DNA of 64,000 nt from Runella sp. SP2 (GTDB taxonomy: Bacteria > Bacteroidota > Bacteroidia > Cytophagales > Spirosomataceae): contig NZ_CP031030.1 in NCBI RefSeq assembly GCF_003711225.1, forward strand, positions 7,368,531 to 7,432,530, read 5' to 3'. The stretch's first letter is position 1. Each line of letters begins with the position of its first letter. Both the position numbers and the translations under genes were made by a program. The notes beneath the pieces were generated by a model, which made no database searches, was not told the origin of the DNA, and saw only the letters and a list, made by a program, of their open reading frames with translations. Of the stretch, positions 20,996 through 46,581 are shown piece by piece.

Positions 20996-21043
20996 AAAAA
21001 GGTTGGGATAACTAGGTTTAGGAGGAGGCAAAAATAGGCCTGC

Positions 21044-27665: not shown

Positions 27666-30600
27666 ATGAAAAACTATGTACTGGGGGTATTTTTTATACT
27701 TTTAGGGCTACTGCAAAGCCATGCCCAATGTCCCAAAGGAACACAAACTTTTGTTAGCCCTAATTTTACTACCCCCGATGGCCTAACTGTGGGAACGCGG
27801 GCAGAGTTAGCCAATAGCATGTGGCCAGGAGAGTATGTGGAGGTCAACCTCACTGCGGGGAATAGCTACCGATTTGACGGTTGTGAAAACGTGGGAGAGG
27901 ATACTTACTTGACAATCCGAAATCCGTCAGATGTGGTAGTAGCTTGGAATGATAACACCTGTAATAATAACCCACAAATCAACTATACACCTACTGTATC
28001 GGGGAAATACTCCTTCTCAATCCACAGAAACGGATGTGGTACTACAATCAATCCAACCCCCCCAATGTTTTATATCCACGCTACGTTGGTGTCAGTGGCG
28101 GGTGGTGGAGCGGCCACCGTCTCGTCCATTGTGCGGGCATCTCCTAGTCCTTCCAATTCGAGTGTCGTGAATTATACCGTCACTTTTTCAGGAAGTGTAA
28201 CTGGGGTGTCTGCTAGTAATTTTTCGCTCACCACCACAGGTAGTGTTACGGGAGCGAGTGTAGGGACACCCTCTGGTTCAGGTACTACCTGGACGGTGCC
28301 TGTCAATACAGGTACGGGCGACGGTACGATTCGATTGGACATGGTAAATGCAACGGGGGTAAACCCAACGGTCACGGTTCCTTACAACTCAGGAGAGGTC
28401 TATACAATTGATAAATCACCTCCGACAGTAAGTATTGGCGCTCCAAGTTCAACGGCCGTCGCCTGTGGTTCAGTCAATTACACCGTTACTTACACGGGAG
28501 CTTCCAACGTTACTTTAGCCGCCTCCAACATCACACTTAATACCACGGGCTCGGCTACTGCCACCGTAGGGATTTCAGGAGCAGGAACAACAACTCGAAC
28601 GGTAACTTTGAGTGGAATTACAGGGGCAGGAACAATAGGGATTAGTATAAACGCGAATACGGCTACCGATGGAGTCGGCAATAGTGCGGCGGCGGCGGGG
28701 CCAAGCGGTACTTTTACAGTTTCGCCCCCAACCGCCTCCATCACAGCAAACAATAGCCCCGTTTGTTCCAACAACACTGCCACCTTTACCTTAGGCGGCA
28801 CCAGCGGCGCGACGGTGACTTACAAAATAAACGGCGGCAGCAACCAAACGACTACTTTGACGGGCGGAACGGCAACGGTCAGCGTACCAAGCGCGACGGC
28901 GAATCAAACACTGACGCTGGTCTCAGTAACTGATGGAAGTTGTAGCCAAAACCTCACAGGGGCTTCGACGGTGACGGTCAACAATTTACCCACGGCGTCC
29001 ATTACAGCAAACAACAGTCCCATTTGTGCCAATAGTACCGCCACCTTTACCTTAGGCGGCACCAGCGGCGCGACTGTCACGTACACAATAAACGGCGGTA
29101 GCAGCCAAACCTCTACTTTGACAGGCGGAACGGCAACGGTCAGCGTACCGAGTGCGACGGCGAATCAAACTTTGACGCTGGTCTCAGTAACTGATGGAAG
29201 TTGCAGTCAAAACCTCACAGGAACTTCAACGGTGACGGTCAACAATTCCCCTACGGCCTCCATTACAGCAAACAACAGTCCCATTTGTTCCAATAGTACC
29301 GCCACCTTTAGTTTGAATGGCACCAGCGGCGCGACCGTCACGTACATAATAAATGGCGGTAGCAACCAAACCACGACTTTGACAGGTGGAACGGCAACGG
29401 TCAGCGTACCAAGCGCGACGGCGAATCAAACTTTGACGCTGGTCTCAGTAACTGATGGAAGTTGCAGTCAAAACCTCACAGGGACTTCGACGGTGACGGT
29501 CAACAATTTACCAACTGCCTCTATTTCAGCAAACAACAGTCCCATTTGTGCCAACAGTACCGCCACCTTTACTTTGAGTGGCACCAGCGGCGCGACGGTC
29601 ACCTACACAATAAATGGCGGTAGCAACCAAACTACTACTTTGACAGGCGGAACGGCAACGGTCAGCGTACCGAGTGCGACGGCGAATCAAACTTTGACGC
29701 TGGTCTCAGTAACTGATGGAAGTTGCAGTCAAAACCTCACAGGGACTTCGACGGTGACGGTCAACAATTTACCAACCGCCTCCATTTCAGCAAACAACAG
29801 TCCCGTTTGTGCCAACAACACCGCCACCTTTACCTTGAGCGGCACCAGCGGCGCAACTGTCACGTACACCCTCAACGGCGGCAGCAACCAAACAACTACT
29901 TTGACGGGCGGAACGGCAACGGTCAGCGTACCAAGCGTGACGGCGAATCAAACCTTGACATTGGTCTCGGTAAGCGACGGAAGTTGCAGCCAAAACCTCA
30001 CAGGAACTTCAACGGTGACGGTCAATAGTTTACCCACGGCTTCCATTTCAGTAAACAACAGTCCCATTTGTGCCAATAGTACCGCCACCTTTACCCTGAG
30101 CGGCACCAGCGGCGCGACGGTCACGTACACAATAAACGGCGGTAGCAGCCAAACCTCTACTTTGACAGGCGGAACGGCAACGGTCAGCGTACCGAGTGCG
30201 ACGGCGAATCAAACCTTAACTTTGGTTTCCGTAAGCGACGGAAGTTGCAGCCAAAACCTCACAGGAACTTCGACGGTGACGGTCAATAATTTACCCACGG
30301 CTTCCATTACAGCAAACAATAGTCCCATTTGTTCCAACAACACCGCCACATTTACCCTGAGCGGCACCAGCGGCGCGACGGTGACTTACACAATAAATGG
30401 CGGTAGCAACCAAACGACCACTTTGACAGGTGGAACAGCAACGGTCAGCGTCCCGAGCGCGACGGCGAATCAAACCTTGACGTTAGTCTCTGTAAGCGAC
30501 GGCAGTTGTAGCCAAAATCTAACGGGAACTTCGACGGTGACGGTCAACAATTCCCCAACCGCCTCCATTACAGCAAACAACAGCCCCATTTGTGCAAACA

Positions 30601-33600
30601 ACACCGCTACCTTTACCCTGAGCGGCACCAGCGGCGCGACGGTCACGTACACAATAAACGGTGGCAGCAACCAAACGACCACTTTGACAGGTGGAACGGC
30701 AACGGTTAGCGTACCAAGTGTGACGGCGAATCAAACTTTGACGTTAGTCTCAGTAACTGATGGAAGTTGCAGCCAAAACCTGACGGGAACTTCAACGGTG
30801 ACGGTCAACAATTCCCCAACCGCCTCCATTTCAGCAAACAACAGTCCCGTTTGTGCCAACAGTACCGCCACCTTTACCTTGAGCGGCACCAGCGGCGCTA
30901 CGGTCACGTACACGATAAACGGTGGCAGCAACCAAACGACCACTTTGACAGGCGGAACGGCAACGGTCAGCGTACCGAGTGCGACGGCGAATCAAACTTT
31001 GACGCTGGTCTCAGTAACTGATGGAAGTTGCAGTCAAAACCTCACAGGGACTTCGACGGTGACGGTCAACAATTTGCCTACCGCCTCTATTTCAGCAAAC
31101 AACAGTCCCATTTGTTCCAACAACACCGCCACCTTTACCCTGAGCGGCACCAGCGGCGCGACGGTCACGTACACAATAAACGGTGGCAGCAACCAAACGA
31201 CCACTTTGACAGGTGGAACGGCAACGGTTAGCGTACCAAGTGTGACGGCGAATCAAACTTTGACGTTAGTCTCAGTAACTGATGGAAGTTGCAGCCAAAA
31301 CCTGACGGGAACTTCAACGGTGACGGTCAACAATTCCCCAACGGCCTCCATTACAGCAAACAACAGTCCCGTTTGTGCCAACAGTCCCGCCACCTTTACC
31401 TTGAGCGGCACCAGCGGCGCTACGGTCACGTACACGATAAACGGTGGCAGCAACCAAACGACCACTTTGACAGGCGGAACGGCAACGGTCAGCGTACCGA
31501 GTGCGACGGCGAATCAAACTTTGACGCTGGTCTCAGTAACTGATGGAAGTTGCAGTCAAAACCTCACAGGGACTTCGACGGTGACGGTCAACAATTTGCC
31601 TACCGCCTCTATTTCAGCAAACAACAGTCCCATTTGTTCCAACAACACCGCCACCTTTACCCTGAGCGGCACCAGCGGCGCGACGGTCACGTACACAATA
31701 AATGGCGGTAGCAACCAAACCACGACTTTGACAGGCGGAACAGCAACGGTTAGTGTCTCGAGTGCTACGGCGAATCAAACTTTGACGCTGGTCTCAGTAA
31801 CTGATGGAAGTTGTAGCCAAAATCTAACGGGAACTTCGACGGTGACGGCCAACAATTTACCAACCGCCTCCATTACAGCAAACAACAGTCCCGTTTGTGC
31901 CAACAGCACCGCCACCTTTACCCTGAGCGGCACCAGCGGCGCGACGGTGATTTACACAATAAACGGCGGCAGCAACCAAGCGACCACTTTGACGGGCGGA
32001 ACAGCAACGGTCAGTGTCCCGAGTGCAACGGCGAATCAAACCTTGACATTGGTCTCGGTAACTGATGGAAGTTGTAGCCAAAACCTGACGGGAACTTCGA
32101 CGGTGACGGTCAACAATTCCCCAACCGCCTCCATCACAGCAAACAACAGCCCCGTTTGTTCCAACAACACCGCCACCTTTACCCTGAGCGGCACCAGCGG
32201 CGCGACGGTCACGTACACAATAAACGGCGGTAGCAGCCAAACCTCTACTTTGACAGGCGGAACGGCAACGGTTAGTGTCTCGAGTGCGACGGCGAATCAA
32301 ACCTTGACGCTAGTCTCGGTAAGCGATGGAAGTTGCAACCAAAACCTGACGGGAACTTCAACGGTGACGGTCAACAATTTACCAACCGCCTCCATTACAG
32401 CAAACAACAGCCCTGTTTGTTCCAACAGCCCCGCCACATTTACCCTGAGCGGCACCAGCGGCGCGACTGTCACGTACACAATAAATGGCGGTAGTAACCA
32501 AACGACCACTTTGACAGGCGGAACGGCAACGGTCAGCGTACCAAGCGCGACGGCGAATCAAACTTTGACGCTAGTCTCGGTAAGCGATGGAAGTTGCAAC
32601 CAAAACCTGACGGGAACTTCAACGGTGACGGTCAACAATTTACCAACCGCCTCCATTACAGCAAACAACAGCCCTGTTTGTTCCAACAGCCCCGCCACAT
32701 TTACCCTGAGCGGCACCAGCGGCGCGACTGTCACGTACACAATAAATGGCGGTAGTAACCAAACGACCACTTTGACAGGCGGAACGGCAACGGTCAGCGT
32801 ACCAAGCGCGACGGCGAATCAAACTTTGACGCTGGTCTCAGTAACTGATGGAAGTTGCAGTCAAAACCTGACGGGGACTTCGACGGTGACGGTCAATAAT
32901 TTACCAACCGCCTCCATTTCAGCAAACAACAGCCCCGTTTGTTCCAACAACACTGCCACCTTTACCTTGAGCGGCACCAGCGGCGCGACCGTCACGTACA
33001 CAATAAATGGCGGTAGCAACCAAACCACGACTTTGACGGGCGGAACGGCAACGGTCAGTGTCCCGAGCGCGACGGCGAATCAAACACTGACGCTGGTCTC
33101 AGTAACTGATGGAAGTTGTAGCCAAAACCTGACGGGGACTTCGACGGTGACGGTCAACAATTTACCAACTGCCTCCATTTCAGGAAACAATAGCCCCATT
33201 TGTGCCAACAGCACCGCCACATTTACCCTGAGCGGTACCAGCGGTGCGACGGTCACGTACACGATAAACGGCGGTAGTAACCAAACAGTCGTATTAACGG
33301 GCGGAACGGCAACGGTCAGCGTACCGAGTGCGACGGCGAATCAAACTTTGACGTTAGTCTCCGTAAGCGACGGAAGTTGTAGCCAAAACCTGACGGGGAC
33401 TTCGACGGTGACGGTCAACAATTTACCAACCGCCTCCATCACAGCAAACAACAGCCCCATTTGTGCCAACAGCACCGCTACCTTTACTTTGAGCGGCACC
33501 AGCGGCGCGACGGTCACGTACACAATAAATGGCGGTAGCAACCAAACCACGACTTTGACGGGCGGAACTGCAACGGTCAGCGTCCCGAGCGCGACGGCGA

Positions 33601-34418
33601 ATAAAACTTTGACACTGGTCTCAGTAACTGATGGAAGTTGTAGCCAAAACCTGACGGGGACTTCGACGGTGACGGTCAACAATTTACCAACTGCCTCTAT
33701 TTCAGCAAACAACAGTCCCATTTGTGCCAACAACACCGCCACCTTTACTTTGAGCGGCACCAGCGGCGCGACGGTGACTTACACCCTCAATGGCGGTAGT
33801 AACCAAACCACGACTTTGACGGGCGGAACAGCAACGGTCAGCGTACCAAGCGCGACGGCGAATCAAATCTTGACGTTGGTGTCGGTAAGCGATGGGAATG
33901 GGTGTTCGCAACCATTGGTGGGAGTGGCGACAATTACTATCCAAACAAAACCCTCCATTGCGTTACAAGTTCAAAGCCAAGTACTAAACGAAGGCAATAA
34001 CCAGGTATTCTGCGACACAGACGCTAATCCTGTCAATAGTTTACAGTTTAGTATTTCGGGTTCGTGCGTCTCGGTTTCTCCCGTTTGGCGAGTGCAGGTA
34101 GGCAGTGGTGCATGGAGTAATTGGTCCACCAGTCCACCAATTTCCCAATCCTCCAATAACCAACTCCACCGTTACCAAGCAGCTTGCGACGCCAATTGCC
34201 CCGCTACTTATTCGGGGGTGATTGAGGTCACTATCAATTATCGGGCTTCTGTTCCCCAAAATGTATCACTGACAGCAGATGGCGTAGTGGTGTCAGTTGG
34301 CGAAACAAAGGAAGTTTGTGTCCTATCAACGACTACGCTTTCATTCACAGCAACTTGTGGGGCGGGAGAAATCATTGTTTACTCCGTTGATGGTATTGAA
34401 TTTATTCGAAATTTCTGA
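27666..34418 (+). CDS. giant repeat surface protein, 5' part (T9SS cargo cut by inversion)
   Basis: The 2,250-residue frame has signal peptide MKNYVLGVFFILLGLLQSHA and a CUB/pre-peptidase-like domain (residues ~20-145: EYVEVNLTAGNSYRFDGCEN, YSFSIHRNGC). Two Ig-like domains (~150-350) follow, then 20 tandem 87-residue Ig-like repeats (28,728-33,947) and the start of a further Cys-containing domain. The native sequence stops at VYSVDG (34,393). The final residues IEFIRNF come from antisense SusC. The continuation GEYTTAVPVALADNQYHNYR lies at 41,844-40,293 on the other strand and carries the T9SS sorting domain. The joined gene would encode 2,759 residues in frame. In this orientation the protein lacks its outer-surface export tail. 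Its probable role is a surface adhesin or gliding-type filament. Confidence 0.88.
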   Translation: MKNYVLGVFFILLGLLQSHAQCPKGTQTFVSPNFTTPDGLTVGTRAELANSMWPGEYVEVNLTAGNSYRFDGCENVGEDTYLTIRNPSDVVVAWNDNTCNNNPQINYTPTVSGKYSFSIHRNGCGTTINPTPPMFYIHATLVSVAGGGAATVSSIVRASPSPSNSSVVNYTVTFSGSVTGVSASNFSLTTTGSVTGASVGTPSGSGTTWTVPVNTGTGDGTIRLDMVNATGVNPTVTVPYNSGEVYTIDKSPPTVSIGAPSSTAVACGSVNYTVTYTGASNVTLAASNITLNTTGSATATVGISGAGTTTRTVTLSGITGAGTIGISINANTATDGVGNSAAAAGPSGTFTVSPPTASITANNSPVCSNNTATFTLGGTSGATVTYKINGGSNQTTTLTGGTATVSVPSATANQTLTLVSVTDGSCSQNLTGASTVTVNNLPTASITANNSPICANSTATFTLGGTSGATVTYTINGGSSQTSTLTGGTATVSVPSATANQTLTLVSVTDGSCSQNLTGTSTVTVNNSPTASITANNSPICSNSTATFSLNGTSGATVTYIINGGSNQTTTLTGGTATVSVPSATANQTLTLVSVTDGSCSQNLTGTSTVTVNNLPTASISANNSPICANSTATFTLSGTSGATVTYTINGGSNQTTTLTGGTATVSVPSATANQTLTLVSVTDGSCSQNLTGTSTVTVNNLPTASISANNSPVCANNTATFTLSGTSGATVTYTLNGGSNQTTTLTGGTATVSVPSVTANQTLTLVSVSDGSCSQNLTGTSTVTVNSLPTASISVNNSPICANSTATFTLSGTSGATVTYTINGGSSQTSTLTGGTATVSVPSATANQTLTLVSVSDGSCSQNLTGTSTVTVNNLPTASITANNSPICSNNTATFTLSGTSGATVTYTINGGSNQTTTLTGGTATVSVPSATANQTLTLVSVSDGSCSQNLTGTSTVTVNNSPTASITANNSPICANNTATFTLSGTSGATVTYTINGGSNQTTTLTGGTATVSVPSVTANQTLTLVSVTDGSCSQNLTGTSTVTVNNSPTASISANNSPVCANSTATFTLSGTSGATVTYTINGGSNQTTTLTGGTATVSVPSATANQTLTLVSVTDGSCSQNLTGTSTVTVNNLPTASISANNSPICSNNTATFTLSGTSGATVTYTINGGSNQTTTLTGGTATVSVPSVTANQTLTLVSVTDGSCSQNLTGTSTVTVNNSPTASITANNSPVCANSPATFTLSGTSGATVTYTINGGSNQTTTLTGGTATVSVPSATANQTLTLVSVTDGSCSQNLTGTSTVTVNNLPTASISANNSPICSNNTATFTLSGTSGATVTYTINGGSNQTTTLTGGTATVSVSSATANQTLTLVSVTDGSCSQNLTGTSTVTANNLPTASITANNSPVCANSTATFTLSGTSGATVIYTINGGSNQATTLTGGTATVSVPSATANQTLTLVSVTDGSCSQNLTGTSTVTVNNSPTASITANNSPVCSNNTATFTLSGTSGATVTYTINGGSSQTSTLTGGTATVSVSSATANQTLTLVSVSDGSCNQNLTGTSTVTVNNLPTASITANNSPVCSNSPATFTLSGTSGATVTYTINGGSNQTTTLTGGTATVSVPSATANQTLTLVSVSDGSCNQNLTGTSTVTVNNLPTASITANNSPVCSNSPATFTLSGTSGATVTYTINGGSNQTTTLTGGTATVSVPSATANQTLTLVSVTDGSCSQNLTGTSTVTVNNLPTASISANNSPVCSNNTATFTLSGTSGATVTYTINGGSNQTTTLTGGTATVSVPSATANQTLTLVSVTDGSCSQNLTGTSTVTVNNLPTASISGNNSPICANSTATFTLSGTSGATVTYTINGGSNQTVVLTGGTATVSVPSATANQTLTLVSVSDGSCSQNLTGTSTVTVNNLPTASITANNSPICANSTATFTLSGTSGATVTYTINGGSNQTTTLTGGTATVSVPSATANKTLTLVSVTDGSCSQNLTGTSTVTVNNLPTASISANNSPICANNTATFTLSGTSGATVTYTLNGGSNQTTTLTGGTATVSVPSATANQILTLVSVSDGNGCSQPLVGVATITIQTKPSIALQVQSQVLNEGNNQVFCDTDANPVNSLQFSISGSCVSVSPVWRVQVGSGAWSNWSTSPPISQSSNNQLHRYQAACDANCPATYSGVIEVTINYRASVPQNVSLTADGVVVSVGETKEVCVLSTTTLSFTATCGAGEIIVYSVDGIEFIRNF
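28728..33947 (+). repeat. 20 tandem copies of a 261-bp coding repeat
   Basis: Units begin at PTASI at 28,728 and then every 261 bp to 33,687 (19 exact steps), with no length change. The consensus reads PTASITANNSPICANSTATF, then a TLSGTSGATVTYTINGGSNQ block, TTTLTGGTATVSVPSATANQ, TLTLVSVTDGSCSQNLTGTS and TVTVNN. Each unit has two Cys (SPxC and GSC), as in Ig-like repeats. Copies 15 and 16 (from 32,382) are nearly identical. Copies 9-10 resemble 11-12 at a 522-bp offset, showing recent duplications. The copy number may vary or be misassembled. Confidence 0.95.
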
Positions 34419-36398
34419 GTACCCTACCAATGCTTTCACTTCGTGCCGGCCAAACGTGTTGCTGTACCCTAACAAATTATTGAGGGTCGTTTCGCGCGTC
34501 ACGCTGCGGATTTCGGTCAAACTACTGCGAGGAATGGTTTTTCTGACCAACGATGGGTTGTAATAATCCAAGACCGTATAAGCATTGGTGTAGTTTTTGT
34601 TTTGCTCTGCTGTATAACGAATCGCGTATTGGCTGCTAAATTTCAGGTTCGGAATGATTTCCCATTCTACTTTTCCACTTCCAAACAAATAGTCCTGCAC
34701 ATTGCGCGAAAGCCCTGCGATTTCGGCATACATCAAGGGGTTATTGCCTTGGGCACTCACGCCATAAGTACCGTCGGGATACTTTGGAACAGCCCACAGT
34801 GACCCGTGAAACATGGTATTAAATACGTTGAACTCACTGATGGGCGTTTGCCAGTTGTTGTTGCGGTAATTGATATCCACGCTTGCGCTCAACCGATTGG
34901 ACACTTTAAAATCGGTATTGGCGCGAATTTCTTTCACATCGCTATCAAAATTAGGAGCAATTCCGCCTTGTTTTTGGTAACGTACCCCTACACGGCCGCG
35001 AAAAAACTCATTTCCCCCGCTAACCGACACGTTCTGACTAAACTGCGGCGCTGCCCGTAACACGGTTTTAAACCACGTATTAGGCAGAGGAAATTTAAGA
35101 CGGTCGGTGGCATTGACGTAATCAGAAATTTGGGTTTCACTATAGCGCGCCGCTGCACCCGAGTTGATAAGCGCCACGTTCTGCAAGCGCATGTAAGGCT
35201 CCAAGTCCATCATTTCGGGTTTGTTAATGGCATTTTGAACGGCATAAAAACCGCTGTAATCCACCACTGCTTTCCCTGACTTGGCGCGTTTGGTGGTCAC
35301 GAGCACAACCCCGTTGGCCGCCCGCGACCCGTAAATCGCCGTCGATGAGGCGTCTTTTAGCACCGAAATACTTTCGATATCATCAAGATTGATGGTGTTA
35401 AAAGGTTGTTCTACTCCATCTACAATAAACAAAGGGTCGTTTGAACTCAACGTAGTGATACCACGTACCCGCACTGTAGCACGAGAGTTAGGGCCTGGCG
35501 AACCACCACGGTCAAGAATCGTCACCCCAGGTGCAATCCCTTGCAAGACTTGGTTAGCGTTCGACACGGGGCGGCGCGTTAGTTGTTCGCTTTTTACCTC
35601 GGCAACGGCACTCGTCAAGCTTGTTTTTTTCTGAACGCCGTAACCGACAACAACCACTTCACCGAGTGCTTTGGTGTCGGCGACCAGCGTGATATTGAGG
35701 GCCGTGCGACCACCTACCACCACTTCTTGGGGTAAATAGCCCACGTAGCTAAACACCAGCACCGCTTTTTCGTCGGGGACGGCAAGTTGAAATCCACCAT
35801 TGACGTCGGTGGTTGTACCACGGTTAGTGCCCTTGAGCAAAATACTTACACCAGGCAAACCTTGACCGTTTTCTTCTGCCACTTTTCCCGCAATTTTTAT
35901 GTCCTCCAACACTACAGCACGGGCCGCTGAGGTTGGAAATTGAAGTTGCGAAGGCACCGTCCGAAGACTTGAGAAATCATTAGAAATCGTTCTAGTGCTG
36001 GGCAACGCTTCTGGACTTGGCTCGCTAGGTGTGAGAATTTCCTTACCCGAAGTTTTTACTTTTTGGGTTTTAATAATGTAGGTATTTCTCACTTTTTTGT
36101 AGGTCAAACCCGCAGGGTTGAGGAGGTTCTCCAACACCTGTTCGAGTTTGCCACTGAGGGCGTCGGCTGCAATCAACCGATTCGGAATTTCGTCGGTTTT
36201 ATACACCAAATGAATCCCAAATCGCGTTTCGGCATCGCGTAGCGCTTCTTTCAAAGGAATAGACGCTTTGCGGTCGGGTTGGGTCTTATTTTGCTGTGAA
36301 ATGGTTGTGTAATTGGCGGCAAACACTTGCGCATTTGCTTTTTGAACAAAACCTGTTATCCCACAGACCAAAAAGGATAATAGTAATGGTTTGTACAT
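34341..36398 (-). CDS. SusC-type TonB-dependent transporter, N-terminal part (cut by inversion)
   Basis: The frame opens with signal peptide MYKPLLLSFLVCGITGFVQK-ANAQ. It continues with an STN domain (residues ~45-110, IPLKEALRDAETRFGIHLVY), a carboxypeptidase-D regulatory-like domain (~165-245, IAGKVAEENGQGLPGVSILL), the plug with EVVVVGYGVQKK, and the first part of the barrel. Native codons end at KFNTIN (34,385). The last residues GVNNDFSRPTSCCE are antisense giant-protein sequence. The continuation AYREDFYNNDVQSIGSG is at 41,854 on the plus strand. The STN domain matches signalling through FecR and ECF sigma, whose genes lie directly upstream (21 bp from fecR). It should import glycan fragments across the outer membrane, but the truncated barrel cannot work. 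Confidence 0.92.
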   Translation of the reverse strand: MYKPLLLSFLVCGITGFVQKANAQVFAANYTTISQQNKTQPDRKASIPLKEALRDAETRFGIHLVYKTDEIPNRLIAADALSGKLEQVLENLLNPAGLTYKKVRNTYIIKTQKVKTSGKEILTPSEPSPEALPSTRTISNDFSSLRTVPSQLQFPTSAARAVVLEDIKIAGKVAEENGQGLPGVSILLKGTNRGTTTDVNGGFQLAVPDEKAVLVFSYVGYLPQEVVVGGRTALNITLVADTKALGEVVVVGYGVQKKTSLTSAVAEVKSEQLTRRPVSNANQVLQGIAPGVTILDRGGSPGPNSRATVRVRGITTLSSNDPLFIVDGVEQPFNTINLDDIESISVLKDASSTAIYGSRAANGVVLVTTKRAKSGKAVVDYSGFYAVQNAINKPEMMDLEPYMRLQNVALINSGAAARYSETQISDYVNATDRLKFPLPNTWFKTVLRAAPQFSQNVSVSGGNEFFRGRVGVRYQKQGGIAPNFDSDVKEIRANTDFKVSNRLSASVDINYRNNNWQTPISEFNVFNTMFHGSLWAVPKYPDGTYGVSAQGNNPLMYAEIAGLSRNVQDYLFGSGKVEWEIIPNLKFSSQYAIRYTAEQNKNYTNAYTVLDYYNPSLVRKTIPRSSLTEIRSVTRETTLNNLLGYSNTFGRHEVKALVGYSEISNKFNTINGVNNDFSRPTSCCE
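34385..34393 (+). repeat. left inversion junction, inverted repeat CGTTGATGG
   Basis: CGTTGATGG here is the reverse complement of CCATCAACG at 41,845-41,853. The match extends imperfectly inward: CGTTGATGGTATTGAATTTA versus CGTTGATGGCGGTGAATATA, 16 of 20 bases. Sequence to the left belongs to the giant gene and sequence to the right to antisense SusC. Confidence 0.9.
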
Positions 36399-36419
36399 GG
36401 TTTATCTCAAAAGTTAGGT

Positions 36420-37439
36420 TTATTTAATCGTTAGTTTTTTTTCTGATAGTTGGCAGTCCGCTTTTAGAAGATCGGCCAAAATGTCTCGTACTTCTTCGGC
36501 ACTGCCCGAAGGAATAGTTCCCGAGATTTTTTCGTTGGCAAGGGCAGGGTTTTCAAAACTTACTTCAATCCCGAAGTTATCCTCGATGCGCTGGGCTACA
36601 TCACTCATTGCTTCGCCGTCCAAAATCCAGATGTTTTGTTGCCACGAACTGTACAACTCGGTTCTTACTTTGCGCTGCGTCAAGCTACGCGTATCGGCCC
36701 GAAATTCCACCATGTCACCAGGCCGCAAGACCGCCGATTGTTGGGCAGCTTTGATTTGAACTTTTCCCGACTGAAGCACCACTTGGGTTGTTTTGCGGCG
36801 GTCTGAGACGTTGAACTCCGTCCCGAGTACTTCCACCACGAGGTCGTTGGTATGTACCCGAAACTTCGCATCGGTTGGCGTATGTTTCACGTCGAAAAAC
36901 GCTTCTCCTTGCAACCACACTTCCCGAATGGCCTTGTCTTTTAAATCTTCGGAAAACGACAAGGTGGTGTTGGCGTTCAAATTAACCACCGAACCGTCGG
37001 GCAACTCAACTTTGCGGGTTTCTCCGTAAGAAGTGGCGTACGACACCGTGGAGGGTTGCGACGTGTACCAAGCGGCTACCACACCACCAACCAGTAGCAC
37101 CACCGCGGCGGCTACCCAACTCAATCGTTTCACAAACGAGCGGCGCAAAGGCACGACGGGAGCGTCTTGCGGCGATAATGGCAAGCCAATGGTTTGCTCA
37201 AGTCGGGTTTTGAGGGCCTGAACCTTCGCTTCTGGCATGTGAGGTAACCGAACATCGAGTCGTTGTACCAGCTGTCGGGCTTCTTCCATCGTCGTTTGGC
37301 GTTCAGGATAGGTGTGGAGAAATCCGTTCCAAAATTGGTCTGCATCTCCCGAAGGATTTCGTACCCAATCTTGGAAAAAGTCATCGGCTGCGAGTTGTAC
37401 AGCGTCGAACGAGGCGTATTTTGTTAAGGGTTCAGGCAT
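36420..37439 (-). CDS. FecR-type anti-sigma factor
   Basis: I start at ATG 37439 (MPEPLTKYASFDAVQLAADD), giving 339 residues; ATG 37463 would add eight. The cytoplasmic sigma-binding region (~1-100) has DFFQDWVRNPSGDADQFWNG. One membrane helix lies near 103-127 (LSWVAAAVVLLVGGVVAAWY). The periplasmic FecR domain has YATSYGETRKVELPDGSVVN, LNANTTLSF and GEAFFDVKHTPTDAKFRVHT, with a C-terminal STN-interacting DUF4974-like part ending KKLTIK. It should hold the ECF sigma until substrate-loaded SusC signals through its STN domain. It sits between the sigma gene (59 bp upstream) and susC (21 bp downstream). Confidence 0.9.
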   Translation of the reverse strand: MPEPLTKYASFDAVQLAADDFFQDWVRNPSGDADQFWNGFLHTYPERQTTMEEARQLVQRLDVRLPHMPEAKVQALKTRLEQTIGLPLSPQDAPVVPLRRSFVKRLSWVAAAVVLLVGGVVAAWYTSQPSTVSYATSYGETRKVELPDGSVVNLNANTTLSFSEDLKDKAIREVWLQGEAFFDVKHTPTDAKFRVHTNDLVVEVLGTEFNVSDRRKTTQVVLQSGKVQIKAAQQSAVLRPGDMVEFRADTRSLTQRKVRTELYSSWQQNIWILDGEAMSDVAQRIEDNFGIEVSFENPALANEKISGTIPSGSAEEVRDILADLLKADCQLSEKKLTIK

Positions 37440-37498
37440 TCTCTCAGAGGCATTATACCCCATAGAGAAACGAAGTGTGAAGATTACCTCTTTCTTTT

Positions 37499-38104
37499 TT
37501 AAAAATTTTTATAAAAAAATTTCAACAGCCCAAAAACCGCTAAAAATATCCAATTATCGCGCAGTTGACCAAGGGCTTTGTAGATAAGATTATAGACCGA
37601 ATGACGCGTGAGCGACATCATTTCGGCGATTTCGTCGTAGCTTAAATTATCGTAAAAACGAAGCAGAAGTGCTTCTTGTTGGCGCTTAGGAAGTTGAGCA
37701 ATGTGTTTTTCGAGCTGATGTTTTTGGAGGGATTCAGTTTCTTGATTGACAAACCAGGTGTCAACAGACTCTATGTAGTCATCGCTTATTTCCTCAAATT
37801 CAGAAAGTTGCGTATGTCTCGACTGCCGATTGAGGTACTTGAGCAATTTGGTTTTTAGGGATTTGCACAAATAAAATTGAATGTTATTTGCCTCAACTTC
37901 ACTCAACGACGCTCGGTATTTCCAAATATCCTCAAATACATCATGAATAGCGTCCGTTAGTAATTCTTCATCATTGCAAAGTCGGCGACCAAATTTGTAC
38001 AAGATTTGTATATACCCATCGTATAATTCGCCCAAAGCATAGTTATCACCTGCCCTGAGTCGATTCCAACTTGTCAAATGTGTATCCTTTTGGTCAGAAT
38101 TCAT
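37499..38104 (-). CDS. ECF-type RNA polymerase sigma factor
   Basis: A 201-residue sigma-70 family ECF protein. Region 2 spans ~20-95 (ALGELYDGYIQILYKFGRRL, DAIHDVFEDIWKYRASL). Region 4 spans ~130-185 (LEKHIAQLPKRQQEALLLRF, YDNLSYDEIAEMMSLTRHSV, YNLIYKALGQLR). With FecR and an STN-bearing SusC this is the usual Bacteroidota trans-envelope switch that turns on a glycan locus when substrate arrives. The tail WIFLAVFGLLKFFYKNF is hydrophobic, which is common in these factors. The gene is first in the sigma-fecR-susC unit and now points away from susD because of the inversion. Confidence 0.94.
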   Translation of the reverse strand: MNSDQKDTHLTSWNRLRAGDNYALGELYDGYIQILYKFGRRLCNDEELLTDAIHDVFEDIWKYRASLSEVEANNIQFYLCKSLKTKLLKYLNRQSRHTQLSEFEEISDDYIESVDTWFVNQETESLQKHQLEKHIAQLPKRQQEALLLRFYDNLSYDEIAEMMSLTRHSVYNLIYKALGQLRDNWIFLAVFGLLKFFYKNF

Positions 38105-38136
38105 ACCTGCATAAAATGAAAGCCGAGTTTTTCAAG

Positions 38137-38144
38137 GCAAAAAT
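38137..38144 (-). promoter_or_regulatory. candidate -7 box of the sigma-fecR-susC unit
   Basis: TATTTTTG on the minus strand matches TAnnTTTG exactly and lies about 33 nt before the sigma-factor ATG. A clear TTTG at -33 is missing, so recognition by another sigma factor or an activator is possible. Confidence 0.4.
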
Positions 38145-38231
38145 AGAATACATAAACAATAGGTTATATAAATTTCTTTTAAATCTTTTAAAATCGTGGA
38201 AAAGTACAAAACAACATAAACAAATAAAAAC

Positions 38232-38263
38232 AAAAGAGGCTGTTTGGTGAAACAGCCTCTTTT
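38232..38263 (-). terminator. rho-independent terminator after the actin-like gene
   Basis: AAAAGAGGCTGTTT (38232-38245) pairs perfectly with AAACAGCCTCTTTT (38250-38263), loop GGTG. The minus-strand product is followed by GTTTTTATTTG. It separates the coiled-coil/actin-like pair from the sigma-factor unit downstream. Confidence 0.85.
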
Positions 38264-38281
38264 AAAAGAAAAAACGAACAG

Positions 38282-39313
38282 TTACTTCAAGCCCAACAAG
38301 AAGCCAATGGTAAAGTTGGCATCCCAGTCAAAAACAAAGGTTTTGCAACCCGTGGCATCAGCAACGGCTTTGTAGATATTTCCTCCTGCTTTTGATTTGG
38401 CTTTGTCGAGTTTGTACGCCTCGGCGGCCTTCAAAACGGTATATCTTTCTTTGCCATTTCGTACCTCTTTGGCCAAATCAAACGGCACACCGCCAATGAT
38501 GAAGCATATTTCTCGCTTGCTCTTTGGCACTTGCTTCGACATTGCCCCTACTTCTTCATATACCTTGTCGTCGGCTACTCCCTTTTCGTAGTACTTAGCG
38601 CCGTACGTTTCAAGGGTTTTGATACTTCCACCTTCTGTCCACGCGATTTTGGTATTTCCTGAACCAATGTCGGTAAAGAAGCCTTTATCGCTAAACGACG
38701 CAGGAAGCGCGCACTTTAAGCCCAGCGAACCTTCTTGGTCGGGCGTTACGGTATTGACCATGTACCCCATGTCTTTCAATACTTTGATAATTTTACCCGT
38801 TACTTCGGCCTTCAATGCGCCCGAGCTTACCACAAAATGAATGTCTTTACCACTTACGCCGTGGTCCATCATGTTACCGATGTAGCGTTTTAGGCCAATG
38901 CGAATGTCATAATCAGAAGCCATGTTTTCGATAACCATGCTATTACCAAACTCAGCGTGTTCGAGCTTCCAATTTTTGTCTTTGTCGATGTTCACCACAA
39001 ACGAGTTAAACCCACTTGCTCCCAATTCGACGACACCTTTGAGCTTCCCATCCACGGGCTCAGGAGCGGTATAAGAAAAAGCGCCAGCCGTCGAAGTAGC
39101 CTCTGCCGATGACTCGCTGCTGGCCAAGGAAGACCCTTCGTCCGAGGCCGTCGATTCGGTTGTGGTACTTGCCGACGGGCCACCTTCGGGCGATTTGGTC
39201 GTCAGTTCTGTTATGGCTTTTTTAGGATCGGGGCCCAAGAAATAATACCCTGCGCCCAATAACCCCGCGATGAATAAAATCAAAAGGACTTTGCCTGCAC
39301 CAGTTAGATTCAT
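38282..39313 (-). CDS. membrane-anchored protein with possible actin-like (ASKHA) ATPase motif
   Basis: The 343-residue protein begins with a hydrophobic anchor (VLLILFIAGLLGAGYYFL, residues ~9-26) and a Ser/Thr/Glu-rich linker to ~80. A globular domain of ~260 residues follows. FFTDIGSGNTKIAWTEGG looks like the phosphate-binding DxGSGxTK loop of actin/Hsp70/Ppx proteins. KLKGVVELGASGFNSFVVNI and KREICFIIGGVPFDLAKEV could be the other ATP-site strands. I do not recognise a named family. If the helix is a normal signal anchor, the domain would be periplasmic, where ATP is absent, so topology or nucleotide use is unusual. It is preceded 18 bp upstream by a coiled-coil protein gene, and the pair probably works together. 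Confidence 0.6.
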   Translation of the reverse strand: MNLTGAGKVLLILFIAGLLGAGYYFLGPDPKKAITELTTKSPEGGPSASTTTESTASDEGSSLASSESSAEATSTAGAFSYTAPEPVDGKLKGVVELGASGFNSFVVNIDKDKNWKLEHAEFGNSMVIENMASDYDIRIGLKRYIGNMMDHGVSGKDIHFVVSSGALKAEVTGKIIKVLKDMGYMVNTVTPDQEGSLGLKCALPASFSDKGFFTDIGSGNTKIAWTEGGSIKTLETYGAKYYEKGVADDKVYEEVGAMSKQVPKSKREICFIIGGVPFDLAKEVRNGKERYTVLKAAEAYKLDKAKSKAGGNIYKAVADATGCKTFVFDWDANFTIGFLLGLK

Positions 39314-39331
39314 AGTAGTTGTGGTTAAATT

Positions 39332-40054
39332 TTACGAAATATACTGTTTTATGCCGTTTTCAATCAAGCTAATTTCACTGGCAACGCCTTCTTTGGCCGT
39401 CACGGTAGCCTGAATTTTTTGTTCAATTTCGGCAAACTTGTCCGTAAACTTACTATCTATTCCGTTGAGCGCCGCTAATTTCTCGGTTTGTATTTTTTCC
39501 AAATTGGCAATTTTCTGTTTCAAATCCGCCAACTGTTGCTCAATGCCGTTCACTTCGGTATTAAGCTGCTGTTGTTCTTTGGCTTTTTCAGTGGTGAGGG
39601 CGTTTTTCTTTTGTTCACCCGCCGCAATTGTCGCTTCAAACGCTTTTTGTAATTCTGTTTTATAGAAGGCCGCCGACTCCAACAAAAACTGTTGATTACA
39701 ATTAGGGTTCAGGAGTTTAGCGCCTTCATAGGCCGTCTTAAAATGCTCTACGCTGGGGTTAGTGCTCGTCCGCAACAACATTTGCGAAAACTCATAAAAA
39801 TCGAAACCAGGCTGATTTTTTTCTTCCAAAATCTTCCGAAAACGGTTTCGTAGGTCTTCCACAAAATCGTTGGAAGCGGGAGCCACAAACACAGGCGCAC
39901 TCACGGGCGTGCTTTTGGGCGGCGCGGAAGGAGCGGGTGCGGACGCAGGTGCGGCTGGTTTTTCTTCGGTTTTTGGGTCGTCTAGTACCACAAAAACTCC
40001 TGCTAAATCGCGAAGCCAACCGCTCATTTTACTTTTTTGGGGTTCGTCTGCCAC
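39332..40054 (-). CDS. coiled-coil protein of unknown function
   Basis: A 240-residue soluble protein. A short N-terminal region (MSGWLRDLAGVFVVLDD) is followed by a Pro/Ala-rich linker (~32-60) and a helical domain (~63-135, FVEDLRNRFRKILEEKNQPG, FDFYEFSQMLLRTS). A long coiled coil occupies ~140-225 (QLNTEVNGIEQQLADLKQKI). There is no signal peptide. It lies directly before the actin-like gene on the same strand, so a cytoplasmic adaptor or scaffold for that partner is a reasonable guess. Both genes are intact inside the inverted segment. Confidence 0.62.
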   Translation of the reverse strand: MADEPQKSKMSGWLRDLAGVFVVLDDPKTEEKPAAPASAPAPSAPPKSTPVSAPVFVAPASNDFVEDLRNRFRKILEEKNQPGFDFYEFSQMLLRTSTNPSVEHFKTAYEGAKLLNPNCNQQFLLESAAFYKTELQKAFEATIAAGEQKKNALTTEKAKEQQQLNTEVNGIEQQLADLKQKIANLEKIQTEKLAALNGIDSKFTDKFAEIEQKIQATVTAKEGVASEISLIENGIKQYIS

Positions 40055-40242
40055 TGTTGTAAAGGTTTGATGTTTTCAATGATTGTTTCGATGCGAATGC
40101 GTATTACCACGAAAGTTATAAAAACCTTCGTATAAGGCCGATAAAGGTAGAAAAGATTTTATTGGGAGGGCATTGGTAAGTAGAAGAGTGGTTGAAAACG
40201 GGGCTAATTTTAGGATTTTTGAGGATGAAATGTGTACAAAAA

Positions 40243-40269
40243 AACCGCCACCTTCAAAAGGTGACGGTT
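40243..40269 (-). terminator. terminator of the giant surface-protein gene
   Basis: AACCGCCACCTT (40243-40254) pairs with AGGTGACGGTT (40259-40269) around CAAA. In the minus direction the stem is followed by a run of seven T. It lies 24 bp beyond the stop at 40293 and so marks the true 3' end of the giant gene, now inverted away from its 5' part. Confidence 0.85.
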
Positions 40270-40609
40270 GAGCACTACCTGTATGAAAAACCCTACTCTA
40301 TTTTTAAAACTTTCAACGTACGAACCAATTGCGCTGTGTTTACGCTCAAAAAATACACGCCAGGTGCTAATTTATCCACTGAGATTTCTTCCGTATGTGC
40401 ATCAGTATCAGCGGTAAATGCTCGGCTTAACACCTGACGTCCCGAAGCATCCATCAACGAAGTCTGTACTACTTGCCCCTTACTGCCCTGGACCTTCAAA
40501 CGGAGAATGTTAGTGACAGGATTGGGCAGAACGGTGGCGAAAGACCCGTTATCGGTGGATTTTAGACCCTTCCAGGGTGACAAATTAGTTGCCGTGCGAC
40601 GGTCCGACC

Positions 40610-40665
40610 CTTGCTCTTTGCCATTTGCCCCTTGCCCACTGCCCTTTGCCTCTTCTCTTGCTGCA
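40610..40665. repeat. TTGCC simple-sequence tract inside coding DNA
   Basis: CTTGCTCTTTGCCATTTGCC, CCTTGCCCACTGCCC and TTTGCCTCTTC form an imperfect TTGCC array like that at 1836-1980. In the giant-protein frame it encodes the linker EEAKGSGQGANGKEQGSDRR, just before the sorting domain, in frame. Confidence 0.6.
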
Positions 40666-41844
40666 CCCACACCTACCCCGTCTCGCGATTGGATTCGGAA
40701 CCAATATTCCTGATAAGCCAAGACATTGCCTTGCGCTTGGCGGGTGGAAGGATAAATACTGCCCCAGCCTTTTTGGTCCCAGTAACGAATACTCAATTTG
40801 TATAAACCTTTCGGTAACCCTGAATCATAGGCATTTCCTCCCGCCCCGTTATCGGCGTAGAAACCATAGGCTGGGTGATTTTGGGCGTATAGCTCCGTCC
40901 AGCCTTCACGATTGGCATACATAAAATAGGGGGCGTTGTTTTCATGAGTATTAAAGGAACGAACCACACCCATTTCGGGGGTTGCCAACATATCAAAAGT
41001 CAGCGAACCGCTTGTTCCCAAAGCACAGGCATCAGCATTGATTGTCCAAAAACGAGGAGCTATTTTGTTGGGATTTTCCACAAAAAAGAGCGTTGGGTTT
41101 TGCTGCGTGCTTTGTTCTAACGTAGGACCACCGTCGCGCGTAATGAATTGGCTAGACCACGCCGCTCGGTCGTTGGTTTTTACCGACGACCTTGATTCGC
41201 CAATGTTAATCAACGTAACCACGAAGGCGTTCCAATAGACCTCTTTACGGTTACTTTCTTGACTTTGGCAACCTCCGTCAAAAAGACATTTGGCCCAGTA
41301 GGTCTGTTTGGTTACGTTGCTGAATGCCACTTCAAAACTTGTCGCGGTGATACCTGTATTCCAGTACGTTCGACTTCCTGCGGGGCAATTGGCCGCGACA
41401 ACAACGGTCGTTCCTGTACATACAATTTCTTGCGAAACAGTCACGACGGGCGCTTGAACAGTCGTTTGCAGCGTAAAAGTCACGACTTGGCTTTTTTCGC
41501 TTAGGCAACCCGTTTCTGTCTGACAACGAGCGTAGTAAGAAGTCGTTTCGGTAGGAATAGTAGAAGGTAGGTTAGGCAAAACCACGTTGGTAGTGGCATT
41601 GTACCAAACCGTTTTTAGGGAACTGCAAGATGATTGGCCGCTAAAACTTGCGGTTGGGTTGCAACTGGTTTCGGGAAAAAGGGACACTTGAGGAGCCGCG
41701 GGAATTGGAACTAATTTTAACCGCATCACTCCAGACTCACTTTCTACGCAAGACAGAATACCACTTGCCTCTCGACAGCGCACACGGTAGTTGTGGTACT
41801 GATTATCTGCCAATGCCACTGGTACTGCTGTCGTATATTCACCG

Positions 41845-41853
41845 CCATCAACG
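41845..41853 (-). repeat. right inversion junction, inverted repeat CCATCAACG
   Basis: CCATCAACG on the plus strand is the inverted partner of 34,385-34,393. To the left lies the giant-gene 3' part (antisense); to the right SusC resumes (GCT TAT CGG, residues AYR). The bases are shared, so the exact crossover within the 9 bp cannot be placed. Confidence 0.9.
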
Positions 41854-43283
41854 CTTATCGGGAAGATTTTTACAACAACGACGTACAATCGATTGGCTCA
41901 GGTTCTGACAACAACAAAAATAGCGGTGGGGTAGATTCTCAATGGGGACTTCGCTCGTTTTTTGGGCGGGTAAACTACGCTTTGGCCGACAAGTATTTGT
42001 TTGAAGCCAATGCGCGCTACGACGGCTCATCGCGTTTTACGGGCGACAAAGTGTATAGCTTTTTCCCGTCGTTTTCGGCAGGCTGGCGTTTGTCAGAGGA
42101 GAAGTTTTTTGAGCCACTCCGCGCCGTGGTGGGTGAGCTGAAAGTACGTGGTTCGTGGGGGAGAACTGGAAATCAAGCAGTAGGCTTGTATAGTTATTTT
42201 CAAACCCTTAACTCTTCTACCTATACGTTTGGCGGCTCGGTGGTGCAAGGCTACGTTCAGTCGAACTTGGCCAACCCGAACTTGACGTGGGAAACGACCG
42301 CTCAAACCGACATCGGACTGGATGCGCAGCTTTGGAACAACCGCTTGAGCTTTACCTTTGATTATTACGACAAATTGACCGACGGTATTTTGCTGAACTT
42401 GCCTATTCCAACAACCGTAGGCTTGAATGCCCCTCCGCAAAACGCAGGAAAAGTGGGGAACAAAGGAATCGAATTGGGCTTGACGTATCGCAACAAAACC
42501 AAGAGTGGTTTCTCGTACGAAATTGGTGGAAACTTTGCCCAAAACAACAATAAAGTAATTGATTTGGCTAAAACAGGGCCTTATATTTCAGGCTCGGACA
42601 TTGACCCGCGCTACATCATCAAAGAAGGTTTGCCTTACAATGCCCACTGGGGCTACAAAACCGATGGGTTGTTCCAAACGGCGGACGAAATCAAAGCCTA
42701 TCCTACGTTGGTGACTAACATGAAACCTGGCGATGTGAAGTACGTGGATTTGAACAACGACGGAAAAATCAACAGCGATGACATGACGTTTATTGGCCTA
42801 ACGTTCCCGCGTTATACCTTTGGACTAAACACCAATTTTAGCTACAAAAACTTTACGCTCTTCACGCAGTGGCAAGGTGCGGCAGATGTGGACACGCGCT
42901 TGTCGGGGGCATTGGCCGAAATGGGGAACTACGAAGGTTTTACCCACAAAATTTATACTGATAACTACTGGACGCCCGAGCGCCCCAATGCGCGCTTCCC
43001 TCGTCCTGTAAAACTGGATTTGCGCAACGTAGCCACGTCCGACCGTATGATTATCGACGGGTCATACTTCCGAATGAAAACCATTCAGCTTTCGTACAGC
43101 TTGCCAAAAGGCTTGTTGGAGCGTGTCAAAGCAGGACGGGCTACGGTCTATGTGAGCGGCACTAATTTGCTCACGTTCTCGAAGTTGAATGAATGGAACC
43201 TCGACCCCGAAGCTGACTCAGGACGCGCGACCTATTATCCTCAAACGTCGCTGACCACGGTTGGTCTTAATGTACAATTTTAA
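41845..43283 (+). pseudogene. SusC-type transporter, C-terminal barrel part (orphaned by inversion)
   Basis: The open frame starts upstream at 41,793, but its first 20 or so residues are antisense giant-protein sequence. Native SusC resumes at the CCATCAACG junction with INAYREDFYNNDVQSIGSGS. Barrel strands follow: NYALADKYLFEANARYDGSS, FPSFSAGWRLSEEKFF, VRGSWGRTGNQAVG, NPNLTWETTAQTDIGLDAQL, DVKYVDLNNDGKINSDDMTF, and the C-terminal TTVGLNVQF ending in Phe. Joined to the N-terminal part it makes a normal 1,147-residue SusC. It has no start or promoter here and lies 22 bp before susD. Confidence 0.93.
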
Positions 43284-43305
43284 CCTTTAAGAAAAGCTTA
43301 AAACA

Positions 43306-44877
43306 ATGAAAATCAGATATATTTTCCCTCTTGTCGTAGGCTTAGGTGTATTGTCAGGTTGCGAACAAAGCCTGCTTGACACCGTACCCAACGACCGTAT
43401 TTCTTCGGATATTTTCTGGAAAACCGAAAGAGACGCAATTCTTGCCTCAAACGGCCTTTATCCTGCTTTGGACGGTGTCAATATTTTTGCCATTGAAGGT
43501 GTCACCGACATTTCGCACGTCAACCAAGTATTTCAAGTAGAGTCGAACATTGAGAAAGGCATTCACGACGCCCTCAATTCGCGTCCTCAAACCGAATGGA
43601 CGGCGGCTTACCGTGGGATTCGCCTTGCCAACGATTTTTTGGCCAACATTGACAAAGTCCAAACTACCAATACTGCCCTCATTGCCCGCCTCAAAGGAGA
43701 AGCGCGTACGCTTAGAGCCTATCAGTACATCAAGCTTGTGGGGCTTTTTGGAGATGTACCTTTGGTAACGACGACCATTGGTATTGAAGAAGGACGGACG
43801 CTCAAGCGGACATCGTCAACCCAAATTTGGGATTTTGTGCTCAAAGAACTTACCGAAGCGGCCAACGATTTGCCCGCTACCCAAACCGACAAAGGGCGTA
43901 TCACCAAAGGGGCTGCTTTGGCCTTGAAAGCACGGGCTGCGCTGTGGGCGGGGCGTTATCAAGACGCGGCGGATGCGGCCAAAGCGGTGATTGATTCAAA
44001 AACCTACACTTTGTATTCGAGTTATGCCAACCTTTTCTCGTACGCGGCTGAAAATAATTCGGAAGTGATTTTGGACAAACAGTTTATCAAAGACACCTAT
44101 TCCAATAACGTGTTTGCCAGCATGGGGCCGTATAGCCAACGTACGGCCAACAATACCTACGTGCCTACCAAAGCGCTGGTGGATGCGTATCCGATGGCAA
44201 ACGGCAAGGACATTACCGACCCTACCAGCGGTTTTGATCCTAAAAATCCGTATGCCAACCGCGACCCGCGTTTGAGGGCCTCGATTTTTGTACAAGGCGA
44301 CGATTTGCCCGATGGGAAGAAATTCGACCCGCGTCCAACAAGCGGTACGGCCGATGCCATCGGCAATACGTACTTAGCCACTTCGACGGGTTTTGTGTTG
44401 AAAAAATACATCAACAAAGAAGACTTAACCACGGGCGGAAACTGCGGAATCAACATCGTTTTGTTGCGGTATGCCGAAGTTTTACTTACGTATGCCGAAG
44501 CCAAAATTGAACTTAACCAGATAGATGCCACCGTTTACGACGCCATTAATCAGATTCGTCAGCGCGCCGATGTGAAGTTGCCTGCTTTGACGACGGGGCT
44601 ATCGCAAGCACAGTTGCGCGAGGCTGTCCGTAAAGAGCGCTTGCTTGAATTGGCGTTTGAAGGACTTCGTTTGTTTGACATTCGCCGCTGGAAAACTGCC
44701 GAAAAAGCAATGGTAGGAGATGTGTACGGAATGACGTACGTGGATGGTACCGATTTGAAAACCATTCAGATTGCCTCATTTACCCGCGTTTTTGATCCTG
44801 CCAAGCACTACCTCTGGCCTATTCCACAGAAAGAACGCGAACTCAACCCCGAGCTTACCCAAAATTCGGGCTGGTAA
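43306..44877 (+). CDS. SusD/RagB family glycan-binding lipoprotein
   Basis: A 523-residue lipoprotein (signal peptide, lipobox VLSGC, Cys19). N-terminal SusD-like features are DRISSDIFWKTERDAILASN and GEARTLRAYQYIKLVGLFGD. The RagB/SusD C-terminal domain has LLTYAEAKIELNQIDATVYD, RKERLLELAFEGLRLFDIRR, and LWPIPQKERELNPELTQN at the end. SusD forms a lid over SusC and captures the glycan. In the intact arrangement it would be co-transcribed with susC, but here the sigma-side promoter points the other way. The gene itself looks undamaged. Confidence 0.95.
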   Translation: MKIRYIFPLVVGLGVLSGCEQSLLDTVPNDRISSDIFWKTERDAILASNGLYPALDGVNIFAIEGVTDISHVNQVFQVESNIEKGIHDALNSRPQTEWTAAYRGIRLANDFLANIDKVQTTNTALIARLKGEARTLRAYQYIKLVGLFGDVPLVTTTIGIEEGRTLKRTSSTQIWDFVLKELTEAANDLPATQTDKGRITKGAALALKARAALWAGRYQDAADAAKAVIDSKTYTLYSSYANLFSYAAENNSEVILDKQFIKDTYSNNVFASMGPYSQRTANNTYVPTKALVDAYPMANGKDITDPTSGFDPKNPYANRDPRLRASIFVQGDDLPDGKKFDPRPTSGTADAIGNTYLATSTGFVLKKYINKEDLTTGGNCGINIVLLRYAEVLLTYAEAKIELNQIDATVYDAINQIRQRADVKLPALTTGLSQAQLREAVRKERLLELAFEGLRLFDIRRWKTAEKAMVGDVYGMTYVDGTDLKTIQIASFTRVFDPAKHYLWPIPQKERELNPELTQNSGW

Positions 44878-44988
44878 TTTAACCTGACACATCAGTAGTA
44901 TCCAACTCCATTTCTATTTTAAAACAAACAAGCAGCGGTAGGACGTCAAGTGCGTTCCTACCGCTGGTTTAATCAACCTAAGCAGAAT

Positions 44989-46464: not shown

Positions 46465-46504
46465 TGAATAGTAGTCATATTTACTTTTGTATAGTTGTAT
46501 AATT

Positions 46505-46562
46505 ATTTGATATACTGTGATTTACAATTAACGGTTAACAAATAACGATTAACAGATAACAG
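46505..46562. repeat. TAAC-rich intergenic tract
   Basis: TTAACGGTTAACAAATAACG followed by ATTAACAGATAACAGT: repeated TTAAC/ATAAC words and a GTTAAC palindrome between the two sulfatase genes. It resembles the TAAC/GTTAT tract at 14.3 kb and may be a dispersed simple repeat. Confidence 0.45.
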
Positions 46563-46581
46563 TGGCTTGCCACTTAAAATT

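Follow-up and report, generated by a model that had tools for sequence, protein, structure and literature searches.

Gene-intersecting invertons were reportedly described by Chanin et al. in 2024. Invertons, as presented in the accessible part of PMC11892184, are flanked by repeats of 10 to 40 nt that are recognized by an invertase (phase variation in general is covered in the part of PMC11868660 available to us), and in Bacteroidales, inversions touching SusC/SusD and inversions within genes are known from the portions of PMC10939037 and PMC12632263 at hand. Spontaneous inversions at short inverted repeats have been reported for Salmonella (Sun et al. 2012, PMC3411829); in the available text of that study, inversions with 12 to 18 bp of microhomology were confirmed in 5 of 5 cases, and those with 7 and 9 bp in 0 of 2. 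A literature search combining Runella and phase variation returned no paper, and one for intragenic invertons likewise none.

The locus described here lies in Runella sp. SP2, in a window of 64,000 nucleotides (the whole stretch of DNA that was analyzed) forming the end of contig C1 (7,432,530 bases; the genome comprises 7.61 Mb in four contigs). It consists of a segment inverted between 9-bp arms, with one end inside a gene for a giant repeat protein and the other inside susC (Table 1). Like the invertons outlined in PMC11892184, it is a segment between inverted repeats that occurs in opposite orientation and involves surface genes, but its repeat of 9 bp falls below their 10-to-40-nt range, is not kept in related genomes (it is inexact in two relatives), and has no PF00589 or PF00239 match nearby. 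With the inversions of gut Bacteroidales, it shares an affected susC locus; those inversions are, in the parts of PMC12632263 and PMC10939037 consulted, described as reversible, whereas in this Runella genome, susC is paired with a giant surface gene unrelated to it, and the order observed simply breaks the two. The spontaneous Salmonella inversions are alike in having a short inverted repeat at their ends and in that no dedicated enzyme is invoked; as far as the available text of PMC3411829 goes, the confirmed cases have 12 to 18 bp and are rare culture variants, whereas the Runella repeat has 9 bp and the inversion is found in the assembled chromosome. A short inverted match is present at both of its ends, and no sequence has been lost. 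The locus is a clear case of an inversion at a 9-bp match without loss of sequence, for which the relatives establish the ancestral order and locate both breakpoints to the base.

Table 1. Features of the inverted segment and its surroundings (window positions; segment shown in the orientation of the assembly)
Feature	Position	Strand	Remarks
Giant repeat gene, 5' part, severed	27666..34384	+	Frame as given extends to 34418; Ig-like matches; NCBIfam Ca_tandemer above cut-off
Left 9-bp arm, CGTTGATGG	34385..34393	+	Encodes part of SVDG in the intact giant gene
Inverted segment, 7,469 bp including arms	34385..41853	-	Matches the relatives' order when flipped
susC, 5' part (carboxypeptidase-like, plug, barrel start), severed	34394..36398	-	Given frame extends to 34341; PF07715, PF13715
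FecR-type anti-sigma factor, intact	36420..37463	-	PF04773 above cut-off
ECF-type sigma factor, intact	37499..38104	-	PF08281 and TIGR02937 above cut-off
343-aa protein, intact	38282..39313	-	Pfam and NCBIfam searched: no match
240-aa protein, intact	39332..40054	-	
Giant gene, 3' part, severed, T9SS type A sorting tail	40293..41853	-	PF18962 and TIGR04183 above cut-off
Right 9-bp arm, plus strand reads CCATCAACG	41845..41853	-	Encodes part of TINA in intact SusC
susC, 3' part (barrel), severed from start	41854..43283	+	Open frame listed from 41793; PF00593
susD, intact, upstream genes now parted	43306..44877	+	PF07980
Sulfatase 1, intact	44950..46464	+	PF00884
Sulfatase 2, intact	46567..48054	+	PF00884

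The inversion had been proposed in a first-pass annotation of the window, and both 9-bp arms were found exactly where that annotation had placed them. Flipping 34385-41853 gave the frames that it had predicted, 2,759 aa (8,280 nt) for the giant gene and 1,147 aa (3,444 nt) for susC, both open, and the junction residues that it had named, VYSVDG+GEYTT and KFNTIN+AYREDF, were recovered in them. It had further called the event conservative to the base. The restored junctions fit those of the relatives R. limosa and R. defluvii ungapped over 71 bases with 9 to 13 mismatches, so that, within that comparison, the breakpoints show neither gain nor loss of a base. The relatives also agree with the proposed severing of both genes, in which the giant protein loses its T9SS tail and SusC its barrel, and the alignments with R. 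limosa and R. defluvii match the collinear order sigma-fecR-susC-susD-sulfatases expected for the flipped segment. The statement that every gene inside the segment is on the minus strand is correct for the six assigned genes and gene parts but not for one plus-strand frame of 111 aa at 40589-40924. Unflipped, the gene order is a two-component pair (24727-27545), the giant gene, the genes for the 240-aa and 343-aa proteins, the sigma factor, FecR, SusC, SusD, and the two sulfatases.

Among named relatives, R. defluvii DSM 17976 and R. limosa DSM 17973 are the closest, and both have the giant gene at this locus. In the gene-order comparison with related genomes that had been suggested as a check, both run unflipped through both junctions. 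The R. limosa locus (L012) formed one block at 33729-46464 with the flipped sequence and three blocks, meeting at the repeat, with the given sequence; the R. defluvii locus (L016) formed a single block at 30814-48052 with the flipped sequence. SusC was surveyed in 13 genomes of the genus, including the source genome, where it is split by the inversion, with 56 candidates scored per genome. At an E value of ≤1e-200, it was found as a single frame in 6 of the 12 other Runella genomes and split over contig ends in 1 (G008), with no match in the remaining 5. No giant-gene match of at least 600 bases was detected in the stretch analyzed upstream of SusC in MFBS21 (L013), R. aurantiaca (L014), CRIBMP (L019), or the HJF.20 MAG (L015, L020), and four of these loci (L013, L014, L019, and L015) aligned as one block across the SusC junction in the flipped order. 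These alignments suggest that the giant gene (27666-40293) was gained or lost in one piece. None of the other genus genomes in which the locus is resolved shows the given order. Since the relatives are unflipped and SusC is one frame in half of the 12 other genomes, the given order is derived; it is confined to one lineage among the genomes compared, the number of close relatives being small.

A wider comparison of 0.80 Mb of R. defluvii with 0.85 Mb of this chromosome around the joined contig ends (blocks of at least 150 bases, best-hit rule) gave 644,028 aligned bases, 636,557 of them in the same direction and 7,471 inverted, the latter being this block alone; the count of a single inversion holds for the roughly 9% of the chromosome that was aligned. 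The identity of the inverted block to R. defluvii (94.8%) is similar to that of the other runs (92.6 to 94.3%), and both of its sides are collinear with R. defluvii for hundreds of kilobases, past the joined chromosome ends. Because the alignment leads directly from the end of C1 back to its beginning, that comparison makes the contig a closed circle.

A 9-bp inverted repeat between two genes of such size is ordinary, at about chance level: between the giant gene and susC, 115 maximal inverted repeats of at least 9 bp were counted, 17 of them longer than 9 bp, compared with approximately 94 in each codon-shuffled pair. Chance does not account, as judged by alignment with the relatives, for breakpoints that lie exactly on the repeat or for the match of both halves of both genes across it. 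The arms are exact over 9 bp and agree at 16 of 20 bases when extended with mismatches. Conservation of such a repeat in relatives distinguishes a programmed-looking switch from a chance event. R. limosa and R. defluvii both read CGTTGACGG at the left (giant-gene) arm; at the position of the right (SusC) arm, R. limosa has CCATCAGCG and R. defluvii CCATCAATG. The repeat is thus inexact in both relatives that carry the two genes (CGTTGACGG versus CGCTGATGG in R. limosa and CGTTGACGG versus CATTGATGG in R. defluvii, 7 of 9 bases each), with longest consecutive matches of at most 3 and 4 in the two. The giant-side arm is changed at a third codon position; in the SusC-side arm, the codon position affected is the second in R. 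limosa and the third in R. defluvii. Where relatives lack the giant gene, their SusC site is one base off the 9-mer (L014, L019, and L015) or two bases off (L013).

In their flanks, the two sites have 23 of 60 bases in common, a value reached by 2 of 113 control repeats, this site being among the 113. At the same places, 22 of 60 bases agree in R. limosa and 19 of 60 in R. defluvii; because the agreement is also seen in the relatives, some of the similarity predates the event and may have helped it. When the two sites were searched for inner palindromes of the kind found at recombinase sites, no center exceeded 7 of 13. The 9-mer CGTTGATGG is somewhat enriched, with 38 copies in 847,531 bases of this genome, above all expectations (6 from base composition and 10, 18, 19, 23, and 28 from Markov models of orders 2, 3, 4, 5, and 7, respectively); R. 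defluvii has 30 copies in the 800 kb searched. A flanking consensus common to the genomic copies was not found. We considered the 9-mer as a genome-wide recombination site and rejected this: some of the copies in this genome are inside the tandem repeats of a giant paralog, four lie 258 bases apart (C1:389,620-390,394), and from this spacing, we read the enrichment as the product of composition and coding repeats rather than as the mark of a site.

Recombinases were sought with Pfam among 20 proteins of the window, and none was found; the two recombinase families searched for, PF00589 and PF00239, had no match in the window. Genome-wide, there are 14 PF00589 and 2 PF00239 matches. The nearest PF00589 matches lie about 253 kb away across the joined ends and about 399 kb away on the other side, and the PF00239 matches are farther than the nearest PF00589 match or on another contig. 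No protein of the inverted form was seen in a database clustered at 90% identity, which could hide one: the 3 matches were all of intact length (1,144 to 1,147 aa). A second search for inverted-form proteins gave 7 matches, none covering more than 73% of the 60 residues, again in a database clustered at 90% identity. The best SusC cluster, of 1,147 aa, has 47 member sequences (among the best 120 of 1,811 matches). The severed parts are read through without stops. By simple pairwise counts on three genomes, their own-branch dN/dS values are 0.060 and 0.083 for the giant-gene parts and 0.060 and 0.028 for the SusC parts, inside the range of seven intact neighbors (0.024 to 0.096). Judged by these counts, the low dN/dS values and the open broken parts fit a recent event as well as they fit a reversible switch.

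Tandem repeats of 261 bp occur in the 5' part of the giant gene, upstream of the left inversion end. The severed 3' part of this gene scores 39.1 bits with TIGR04183 (cut-off, 23) and thereby has the C-terminal sorting domain of T9SS type A cargo; a counterpart with 97% identity is found in R. defluvii within a frame of 2,113 aa, and the R. limosa copy at the corresponding locus has a frame of 735 aa because its contig stops inside the repeats. The protein belongs to a family of giant proteins with a common conserved tail of about 520 aa, for which the genome has 41 uninterrupted tail frames, the severed one included. The family is located mostly at C1 3.33 to 3.98 Mb (loci L083 to L086), with 27 of the 41 tail frames on one strand of a single 0.65-Mb stretch. 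The tails of the other 40 paralogs are in frames of 1,194 to 4,873 aa, and none is severed like the copy at the inverted locus. At an E value of ≤1e-180, tail matches numbered 37 in this genome, 42 in R. defluvii, 32 in R. limosa, 1 in G008, and 0 in the other nine genomes of the genus; by this distribution, the family is a clade-specific expansion. Among these 112 matches in four genomes, three tail frames are shorter than 735 aa, namely, the severed copy (534 aa) and two in the R. limosa draft (528 aa and 471 aa), with the match of the 528-aa frame beginning at base 80 of its contig. An exact copy of the intact giant-gene junction was not found elsewhere in the genome; three paralogs have it with 1 to 3 mismatches, and it is uncut at the 11 distinct paralog places compared in the genome (15 to 26 mismatches per 71 bases). 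A degenerate tail copy with two TGA codons and one TAG codon is present at C1:3535658-3536208. On the 77-kb contig C3 (L088:2873-16563), a serine resolvase gene comes after a 4,250-aa protein that has a T9SS tail and 42 SprB-repeat stretches.

In the other broken gene, TIGR04056 matches the susC 5' part at positions 1 to 514 of 981, placing the cut behind the plug domain and the initial portion of the barrel. susD begins 22 bp behind the end of SusC, and by family matches, the locus has susC beside susD together with carbohydrate-acting enzymes, as in a glycan locus; susC is whole only when the segment is unflipped. An annotation of this genome would show four fragments, two of them with original starts, in place of two whole genes.

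Taken with the order in the relatives, these data argue for a single, recent inversion mediated by microhomology, and not for a programmed switch, with a probability of roughly three in four. As the close relatives examined are unflipped, the given order is likely a recent chance rearrangement and not an evolved on/off switch. A one-off rearrangement had been the fallback of the first-pass annotation, and it best fits the relatives' order, the short and inexact repeat, and the lack of any searched recombinase family nearby. Two breaks, or a template switch, would have occurred in the giant gene and susC, with crosswise joining at a short stretch matching by chance in this lineage. The giant protein, deprived of its T9SS sorting tail, would escape T9SS sorting and anchoring, and the tail part would be left without the original start of the gene. 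SusC, lacking most of its barrel, would be lost as a transporter, and susD and the two sulfatase genes, cut off from the sigma-fecR-susC leader and from whatever promoter drives them, would probably be poorly expressed. The 40 other uninterrupted giant paralogs may make the loss of one tolerable. Counting against the one-off inversion, the flank agreement (23/60) is unusual, and a 9-bp arm is short even for a spontaneous process, since the 7- and 9-bp inversions were unconfirmed in the available text of PMC3411829. A reversible phase-variation switch, in which a site-specific recombinase flips the segment at the 9-bp sites and toggles the giant protein together with the SusC/SusD/sulfatase locus, would account for the balanced, loss-free ends, for the lack of decay in the severed parts, and for site flanks that agree somewhat more than those of control repeats; surface genes and SusC/SusD are also typical inversion targets in Bacteroidales, according to the parts of PMC10939037 and PMC12632263 at hand, and the 14 PF00589 and 2 PF00239 matches in the genome could act from a distance. 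We nevertheless regard such a switch as unlikely. The dual on/off switch that the first-pass annotation had favored finds a very short repeat, below the 10-to-40-nt range given for invertons in the accessible part of PMC11892184 and inexact in both R. limosa and R. defluvii, the relatives with both genes; no PF00589 or PF00239 match in the window; a single order in the genus genomes with SusC resolved, none of which has the given one; and no inverted-form protein among the 3 and 7 database matches, although the 90% identity clusters could hide one. That a distant recombinase acting on a 9-bp core flips the segment and so switches a giant adhesin-like protein and a sulfated-glycan uptake locus by cutting coding regions rather than a promoter is, by the same evidence, quite unlikely.

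It is also improbable that the chromosome is intact and that the given order is an assembler error or a minor culture variant. The order is known from one assembly only, and the 261-bp repeats of the giant gene make the region hard to assemble, but the two junctions are reciprocal and fall on the same 9 bp with no base added or missing, collinearity extends over hundreds of kilobases of the flanks, and the contig ends join by the R. defluvii comparison. A chimeric read would yield a single junction, and a match as short as 9 bp would not mislead an assembler. Highly improbable is an inversion caused by pairing among the giant paralogs or their tandem repeats: the right end is inside susC, the similarity between the two sites is limited to the 9 bp and 23 of 60 flanking bases, and the other 40 tails, whose frames measure 1,194 aa or more, show no such severing, despite the 41 uninterrupted tail frames in the genome and the 261-bp tandem repeats upstream of the left end that would favor it.

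Within the inverted segment, the 343-aa protein (38282-39313) is present in 31 of the 59 genomes searched, including all 13 Runella genomes. Terminator-like hairpins were seen at 40269-40243, after the end of the giant gene, and at 38264-38231, after the gene for the 343-aa protein; the 12 terminator-like matches across the region are not above the number in shuffled sequences (mean, 15.7). In three loci of relatives without the giant gene (L014, L019, and L020), the 240-aa gene has a relative of the sulfatase at 19493-21031 nearby. In R. limosa, about 1.1 kb of extra sequence is found between sulfatase 2 and an L,D-transpeptidase gene (L012:14648-15903).
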